From positions 1 through 35,344 of the forward strand of contig JASJDT010000006.1 in assembly GCA_030065655.1 (NCBI GenBank): a stretch of DNA of 35,344 nucleotides, read 5' to 3'. Source of the DNA: Desulfocapsaceae bacterium. Lineage in GTDB: Bacteria > Desulfobacterota > Desulfobulbia > Desulfobulbales > Desulfocapsaceae. Of this stretch, positions 33,108 through 34,780 are shown in pieces. The notes under the pieces were generated by a model, which was given only the letters and a program-made list of their open reading frames with translations, was not told the origin of the DNA and did no database searches. The translations under genes and the position numbers were made by a program. How positions within the stretch are numbered: the stretch's first letter is position 1; every line of letters begins with the position of its first letter.

Positions 33108-34448
33108 TCAAGGTGTTGAGACATTCTCGTCAACTTTAAGTCTACATTTTTCTGCACTGACATCGTTTCTAAAAAGTGTTGCTCCTCGCTCCATGGCACA
33201 GAAATCACCGCACATAGTGCAGGTGCTGTCATTTTCCGGTGCCCTGCTCTGACGAATCTCCTTAGCTTTTTCCGGAAACATGAGATGTTCAAAGTGTTCC
33301 TTCCAGGCCGTGTCACGTCTAGCAAGCGCCACCATCTTTTCCTGCTCGCGTCTTTCCGGGTATTTGGCTAGATCGCCGATGCGGGCGGCCAGACGGGTGG
33401 CCCGTACTCCTTCACGCACATCGCTCTCATTCGGCAAAGCAAGATGTTCGGCAGGAGTAATATAACAGATCAGATCGGCTCCATGCCAAGCTGAACTTGC
33501 AGCTCCTATGGCTGCTGTTATATGGTCATAGCCTGCCCCGGAATCAGCAGGCAGAGGACCGAGAACATAGTACGGTGCCCCTCCGCTCATGGCTTTTTCG
33601 AGCATAATATTTCCCTGAATTTCATCAAGAGGCACATGTCCCGGTCCTTCCACCATCATCTGACATCCCATATTCCTACCTAGCTCGGCCAGTTCACAAT
33701 TAATGACCATCTCGGCCATTTGAGCCCGATCATGGCTGTCGTGAATTGCTCCAGCTCGTATACCATTTCCCAGCGAAAGAACAGCATCATATTTTTTCAT
33801 CAGTTCGCAAACTCTATCAAACTGTTTGTAAAGCGGATTCTCCTGATTGTTATATTCCATCCAGGAAACCATGAATGTTCCACCCTTGGAGACCAAACCG
33901 CCGTACCTGAACCCTTGATTGCGCAGGCGTTCGATAGTATAGCGATTTATACCGCAGTGGATGGCCATAAAAGAGATACCATCGGTAAGTTGACGTTCAA
34001 TCAGTTCGAACAAATATTCGCTATCGAGTTTGTTCGGATTGTTATATTCTCTGGCAGCTTCAGCAAACGCCTGATAGAGGGGCACGTTGCCAACAGGCAA
34101 GTTGCAATTGGCAAGTACTTCCCGACGGATGTGATCAAGATCGCCACCTGCTGAAAGCTCCATGAGGGTGTCAGCTTTTTCTTCTTCTGCTACCCTGGCC
34201 TTGCGTACCTCCAGTGCAGCATCGCAAATATCCGACGATGTACCAATCGAGGCGTTGACCTTGGTACGCAGGCCCTTGCCAATGCCAACTATTTTCTGGC
34301 CAGGCCTGTCAGGATGAACGGGGATTACGATCTGACCTTTGGCTACCCTCTGCCGAATCGTCTCTTCTGCACAACCCTCATCTTTTGCCACCTGTCTCAT
34401 TGCCTCAGAAATAGTACCTGCCTTAGCCAATTCAATCTGGGTTTTCAT
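33108..34448 (-). CDS. bzaF: ThiC-family radical SAM enzyme; probable 5-hydroxybenzimidazole synthase BzaF (alternative: ThiC)
   Basis: A 446-aa protein of the ThiC family: VNASIGTSSDICD, MELSAGGDLDHIRREVLANCNLPVGNVPLYQAF, FMAIHCGINRYTIERL, GGTFMVSWMEY, LSLGNGIRAGAIHDSHDRAQMAEMVINCELAELGRNMGCQMMVEGPGHVPLDEIQGNI, YYVLGPLPADSGAGYDHITAAIGAA, and a C-terminal cluster motif CTMCGDFC (CX2CX3C). ThiC makes the thiamin pyrimidine from AIR; its paralogue BzaF makes 5-hydroxybenzimidazole, a cobamide lower ligand, from the same substrate under anaerobic conditions. Sequence alone does not separate them by eye, but the gene lies behind a cobalamin riboswitch (not TPP), which favours BzaF. The start has AGGAG 6-7 nt before the ATG. 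It appears monocistronic. Family certain; BzaF versus ThiC about 70:30 in my judgement. Confidence 0.85.
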   Translation of the reverse strand: MKTQIELAKAGTISEAMRQVAKDEGCAEETIRQRVAKGQIVIPVHPDRPGQKIVGIGKGLRTKVNASIGTSSDICDAALEVRKARVAEEEKADTLMELSAGGDLDHIRREVLANCNLPVGNVPLYQAFAEAAREYNNPNKLDSEYLFELIERQLTDGISFMAIHCGINRYTIERLRNQGFRYGGLVSKGGTFMVSWMEYNNQENPLYKQFDRVCELMKKYDAVLSLGNGIRAGAIHDSHDRAQMAEMVINCELAELGRNMGCQMMVEGPGHVPLDEIQGNIMLEKAMSGGAPYYVLGPLPADSGAGYDHITAAIGAASSAWHGADLICYITPAEHLALPNESDVREGVRATRLAARIGDLAKYPERREQEKMVALARRDTAWKEHFEHLMFPEKAKEIRQSRAPENDSTCTMCGDFCAMERGATLFRNDVSAEKCRLKVDENVSTP

Positions 34449-34493
34449 TCATGTCTCCTGTCATCTGAGATTGTGTAGACCTGTATTGTGGGC

Positions 34494-34535
34494 AAAAAAA
34501 AGTCCATAAACGAGCATGAGCTCATTTATGGACTT
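34494..34535 (-). terminator. Intrinsic terminator in the bzaF leader (riboswitch expression platform)
   Basis: On the minus strand a 16-bp stem AAGTCCATAAATGAGC / GCTCGTTTATGGACTT (one G-T pair), loop TCAT, followed by eight T. It lies between the riboswitch aptamer and the coding region. The upstream segment CGACTTTGTAGTCC can pair with part of the stem (GACTT/AAGTC), giving a plausible antiterminator. Confidence 0.92.
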
Positions 34536-34560
34536 GTCAGGACTACAAAGTCGTTATCTT

Positions 34561-34740
34561 TCAGGCAGGTCTTCTGACTCGCGGATCATTCTCCGGCTGA
34601 ACCTTCCCACCCATATAGCAATCTCTGGCTGTATGGGCAGTGGTATATCTCAGCTTTTGTTCCCGCTCACAGCGCTGGCCCAACGTTACGGATTTTCACC
34701 GTATTCCCTTTTCATCACCCTTGGGTGACACCTGTAAGTT
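34561..34740 (-). ncRNA. Cobalamin (adenosylcobalamin) riboswitch
   Basis: On the minus strand the aptamer reads ACAGGTG (P1/P2 side), AAAAGGGAATACGGTG followed by AAAATCCGT, GCGCTGTGAGCGGG, ACCACTGCCC, a side hairpin ending in ATGGGTGGGAAGG, and the B12 box GAGTCAGAAGACCTGCC (34563-34580). Order and spacing match the cobalamin riboswitch class. With the terminator downstream, the expected logic is B12-dependent premature termination of the ThiC-family gene. Confidence 0.94.
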
Positions 34741-34751
34741 ATTTCATGAAA

Positions 34752-34780
34752 TTTTTACCGAAAAAATGTATGTCTGTAAA
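34752..34780 (-). promoter_or_regulatory. Candidate promoter of the riboswitch-controlled gene
   Basis: On the minus strand TTTACA, 17-nt spacer, TAAAAA. The start point would fall at about 34745, immediately before the aptamer. Confidence 0.55.

Follow-up and report, generated by a model that had tools for sequence, protein, structure and literature searches.

A ThiC-family gene behind a cobalamin riboswitch and terminator in a Desulfocapsaceae bacterium: a probable BzaF-type 5-hydroxybenzimidazole synthase

We find that the ThiC-family gene at the right end of the stretch of DNA analysed here very probably (with a probability of roughly 0.93) encodes a 5-hydroxybenzimidazole synthase of the BzaF type that is subject to cobamide feedback, its activity and its ligand response being predictions from sequence. 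The stretch, which we call the window, is 35,344 nucleotides long and is the entire contig C247 of assembly G000 (3.84 Mb in 286 contigs, 84.5% complete, 4.5% contaminated); the aptamer, the terminator and the gene all sit on its minus strand (Table 1). A preliminary description of the window had proposed the BzaF reading, and our analysis bears it out: the protein falls in a clade with Geobacteraceae and Desulfuromonadales genes, it carries the replacements N228S and D383N, and a cobalamin riboswitch accompanies 24 of 29 genes of its group as against 0 of 36 ThiC genes.

Table 1. Features of the riboswitch-controlled gene, in window coordinates.
Feature	Position	Strand	Basis
bzaF-type gene (ThiC family, radical SAM), 446 aa, predicted 5-hydroxybenzimidazole synthase	33108..34448	-	ORF with ATG start; ThiC family (PF01964) 580 bits; BzaF-type clade
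ribosome-binding site AGGAGAC	34453..34459	-	read from sequence; AGGAG six bases before ATG
intrinsic terminator: 16-bp stem, 4-nt loop, T8	34494..34535	-	folding and covariation
cobalamin riboswitch aptamer	34547..34750	-	RF00174 107.2 bits, E 3.9e-26, model positions 1-189 of 189
B12 box GAGTCAGAAGACCTGCC	34564..34580	-	read from sequence
possible promoter TTTACA-18-AAAAAT	34751..34780	-	weak, not above chance

The gene's family score confirms that a ThiC-family gene lies downstream of the leader, as the preliminary description had it. The same description predicted that an automatic 'thiC' label would be wrong; NCBIfam does call the protein ThiC, at 570 bits (cut-off 410) and 511 bits (cut-off 460), while the protein groups with BzaF-type genes. 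These scores above the ThiC cut-offs are one reason for supposing that the gene is a thiamin ThiC which supplies this organism with HMP-P and has been brought under a cobalamin riboswitch. The presence of the thiazole branch thiSGHF is another, and a third is that the window gene is the only ThiC-family member that the family search found in the 84.5%-complete assembly.

The ThiC-family search took in 58 related genomes. Among these relatives, fragments aside, the family scores fall into two separate bands, 607-655 versus 558-590 bits; when full-length genes are scored against the window protein instead, ThiC lies below 403 bits and the second group above 590. We placed 99 proteins, including the Arabidopsis and Caulobacter ThiC of known structure, in a tree whose branch dividing ThiC from the second group has an SH-aLRT support of 100 and a length of 1.59 changes per site. 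The window protein lies on the second-group side. Thus the phylogeny, which the preliminary description had put forward as a check, groups it with BzaF-type genes and apart from thiamin ThiC, the name BzaF being anchored by clade membership and by gene order with Geob_0538-0543 rather than by a characterised BzaF sequence in the tree. The second group also holds genes of Geobacteraceae, Desulfuromonadaceae and Malonomonas, with Geomonas, Geomobilimonas and Desulfuromonas among the genera represented, and the closest relative of the window protein, 86% identical, is encoded in the congener G001.

On three MAG contigs a true ThiC and a BzaF-type gene stand side by side (L087: 351, 1761; L089: 4561, 5962; L102: 4551, 5914), which may go back to a tandem duplication or reflect shared regulation. 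The BzaF-type genes of G016 (C1:1035822-1037074, L069) and G041 (C124:5486-6432, L072) look split over two or three frames, through either sequencing errors or decay, and ThiC-family fragments at contig ends in G008, G035 (L070, L071) and G056 were placed in neither group.

The two types are divided, without a single exception among 148 sequences, by three active-site residues. In 107/107 second-group sequences, the window's included, AtThiC N228 is replaced by Ser, D383 by Asn, and the Arg of SRGG by Lys, whereas 41/41 ThiC sequences have N, D and R at these positions (AtThiC residue numbers were obtained by offset from a printed alignment and verified by the E422-D383 spacing). The CX2CX4C Fe-S cysteines and the equivalents of E422 and C474 (Caulobacter numbering) are kept in all sequences of both groups. 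In AtThiC, N228 and D383 touch the 3'-hydroxyl and N3 of AIR, and the mutants N228D and D383A yield no HMP-P; D383N partly retains HMP-P activity (PMC11117688). Therefore, Asn alone is no bar to ThiC chemistry. As far as residues can tell, the window enzyme should keep radical-SAM chemistry on AIR, probably without the thiamin reaction as known.

The reading of the gene as thiamin ThiC is thus opposed by a position outside the ThiC branch at full support, by replacement of the two residues at which AtThiC mutants lose HMP-P (PMC11117688), and by the 23 of 58 genomes that carry both ThiC-family kinds. We reject, on the tree, the residues and the relatives, the argument that a single ThiC-family gene must be ThiC.

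Regulation separates the two groups as well. Among the matches listed, a cobalamin riboswitch lies within 500 bp upstream of at least 20 of 29 second-group genes, versus 0 of 36 ThiC genes (Fisher p 3.5e-10); after the remaining loci had been scanned, the former count rose to 24/29. The ThiC loci were checked independently for cobalamin control by a B12-box search: a box identical or nearly identical to GAGTCAGAAGACCTGCC is found ahead of 51 of 110 second-group genes and 0 of 39 true ThiC genes. Conversely, a TPP riboswitch lies within 700 bp of 7/36 ThiC genes and 0/29 second-group genes, which again counts against a thiamin ThiC in the window. In G054 and G046 the riboswitch heads a run of cob genes instead of the BzaF-type gene alone, the G046 match being marginal (31.9 bits versus 31.5), and in G042 the contig starts at the second-group gene. 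A sub-clade of BzaF-type genes from Thermodesulfobacteria (L104-L109) has CYVT in place of CYIT; in those of its loci that were tested, the 450 bp upstream contain no B12 box, and Rfam finds no riboswitch in L107.

Gene order ties the group to cobamide synthesis. Malonomonas rubra has a riboswitch-headed cluster cobT-cobS-cobC-cbiA-bzaF-type-cbiD, in agreement with what has been published for bzaF of Geotalea daltonii, where a B12 riboswitch accompanies the order cobU-cobT-cobS-cobC-cbiA-bzaF (PMC13119186). The BzaF-type gene of Geomonas paludis likewise lies in a cluster headed by a cobalamin riboswitch, in which cobT and cbiA could be confirmed, and in G054 the genes cobU-cobT-cobS-bzaF-type-cobD/cbiP-cbiB form one run. 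The local order in the window, uvrC, bzaF, ABC transporter, acylphosphatase (neighbours named by inspection), is the same in G001. Such cobalamin riboswitches and linkage to cob operons throughout the clade make it exceedingly improbable that the window enzyme turns AIR into some other benzimidazole-like compound with a different use, a reading that draws on there being no activity known for any member in this order.

The gene might instead be BzaA or BzaB, that is, one half of a two-protein route to 5-hydroxybenzimidazole. These proteins belong to the same superfamily, and the BzaB model TIGR04386 does match the window protein; its score of 494.6 bits (495 when rounded), however, is far under the curated cut-off of 700. 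Across the 58 genomes, moreover, second-group genes occur one per relative with no paralogous partner, as would fit an enzyme that works without BzaA/BzaB, and the clade agrees with the position of bzaF in Geobacteraceae operons. We consider a BzaA or BzaB identity very improbable.

The leader is a full cobalamin riboswitch, as the preliminary description had claimed in reporting a complete aptamer with a B12 box. Run against the Rfam covariance model, a check which that description had itself suggested, the aptamer passes RF00174 membership at full length, its score standing against a gathering score of 31.5. The terminator has also held up as described: stem and loop occupy 34500-34535, with 16 pairs and a loop of 4, and the T8 run occupies 34494-34501, two of its T lying inside the stem. 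The hairpin has a dG of -24.5 kcal/mol, with a z of -7.2 against shuffles. In an alignment of 19 relatives, 96% of cells are paired and 13 of the 16 stem pairs show compensatory changes, values that 0 of 500 shuffles reached and that slid registers came nowhere near. Such pairing, with compensatory changes beyond those of the shuffles, argues that the hairpin is under selection as a structure. It follows the B12 box at a spacing of 28 nt in the window, and of 25-38 nt in most close relatives. The promoter claimed upstream fared otherwise: the candidate matches at 9 of 12 positions, and the scanned region gave 4 such sites versus 2.7 expected. Since this count is near chance, the match is no evidence of a promoter.

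The rest of the cobamide pathway can be traced in part in this assembly. The corrin pathway, which the preliminary description had proposed to seek along with cobT, is present on contig C50, where the assembly's own cobalamin riboswitch for that operon and an ABC transporter-like pair are followed by cbiA, cbiC, cbiD, cbiE/T, cbiL, cbiF, cbiG and cbiH. CobT was not found in the 84.5%-complete assembly, and both congeners have it. In G001 the order is cobC-cobU-cobT-cobS-cobD/cbiP-cbiB; contig C269 of G000 runs through cbiB and the cobD/cbiP fusion into the final portion of cobS, where it ends. Because C269 stops inside cobS, and cobT is the next gene in G001, the missing CobT falls in an assembly break, and we reject a pathway broken for want of CobT. 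The window gene is thus linked to cobamide synthesis by its cobalamin riboswitch, by the corrin operon and by the cobS fragment beside the missing cobT. No gene in the 58 genomes exceeds the cut-off of the BzaD-type model TIGR04385; a methylated benzimidazole is therefore disfavoured, and plain 5-hydroxybenzimidazole would be the likeliest product. A third cobalamin riboswitch of G000 lies at C33:9349-9527 on the minus strand (L008, 124.7 bits), with no gene evident directly downstream on its strand within the stretch read.

It remains to consider where the cell obtains thiamin. On contig C148 a TPP riboswitch precedes the thiazole genes thiS (named by inspection), thiG, thiH and thiF, and on C88 a second one leads an operon made up of thiM, thiE and an ABC importer whose binding protein is NMT1/THI5-like. 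Importers of this kind are known to bring in pyrimidine precursors, and the C88 operon suggests pyrimidine import. Since it could provide the pyrimidine, this operon, too, weighs against the window gene being the thiamin ThiC, a reading that we regard, all told, as very unlikely. The preliminary description had named a sole ThiC in a thiamin-prototrophic genome as one case that would speak against BzaF. The first half stands, within an 84.5%-complete assembly, but the second does not, import being the sole identified source of thiamin pyrimidine in G000. The second thiC behind a TPP riboswitch that it had thought worth seeking was not found in this assembly; the congener carries both ThiC-family genes, its true ThiC under a TPP riboswitch, and for the surroundings of that thiC in G001, G000 yielded no more than scattered matches. 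The true ThiC of G000 may be genuinely absent or lost in assembly. A BzaF-type gene occurs without ThiC in 8 of the 58 genomes (G000, G002, G015, G027, G028, G030, G032, G051), several of which are about 98-99% complete. There is a slim chance that in such lineages the enzyme also releases HMP-P for thiamin synthesis, in which case a B12 switch would partly govern the supply of vitamin B1.

If the gene is a BzaF-type synthase, we envisage that this radical-SAM enzyme would rearrange AIR to 5-hydroxybenzimidazole without oxygen, and that CobT would activate the product, which would then serve as lower ligand in the cobamide of the cell. Ligand-favoured termination is the usual mode of cobalamin switches. 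When cobamide is plentiful, the filled aptamer would let the terminator hairpin halt transcription ahead of the gene; when it is scarce, transcription would pass the terminator into the bzaF-type gene. Both the benzimidazolyl identity of the cobamide and the B12 response of the leader are what we infer here. In G. sulfurreducens, the 5-hydroxybenzimidazole for the cobamide is reported to come from BzaF (GSU3005; PMC7726332).

BzaF, its reaction and the control of a bzaF-containing cluster by a B12 riboswitch are already known. To this we add a bzaF-type form that stands alone, is controlled by a terminator and is conserved across an order, together with a residue signature and a clear case of systematic mislabelling. 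A literature search that lay mostly outside subscription papers, the original BzaF work among them, found no report of a stand-alone riboswitch-bzaF unit in this order. It is important to correct the label, as a ThiC annotation would give the organism a route to the thiamin pyrimidine which it may not possess, and would overlook its benzimidazole synthesis; the eight genomes with a BzaF-type gene alone would wrongly be made thiamin-pyrimidine prototrophs by automatic annotation. The S/N/K signature, whose earlier publication was only partly checked, could let annotators correct labels across Desulfobacterota and beyond.

Compared with ThiC, the window protein is of the same family, with AIR expected as its substrate and with CX2CX4C and the E422 and C474 equivalents kept, but it differs in N228S, D383N and the SRGG Arg to Lys change, in its separate branch, and in having a cobalamin rather than a TPP riboswitch. 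The reaction expected of it is that of BzaA/BzaB from Eubacterium limosum and Moorella thermoacetica (PMC8123684); two proteins are needed there, whereas the window genome has one gene, which scores far below the BzaB cut-off. The closest likeness is to BzaF (GSU3005, Geob_0543), also a single ThiC-family gene, in the clade of genes from Geobacteraceae cobT-cobS-cobC-cbiA operons and under B12 riboswitch control. Unlike the BzaF of Geobacteraceae, however, the window gene stands alone with its own riboswitch and terminator, and not at the end of a cob operon with a shared riboswitch. The leader itself is like other RF00174 switches that act with a transcription terminator, in its full aptamer, its B12 box and the terminator after the box; there is no essential difference from those systems, and the notable part is the gene that is controlled.
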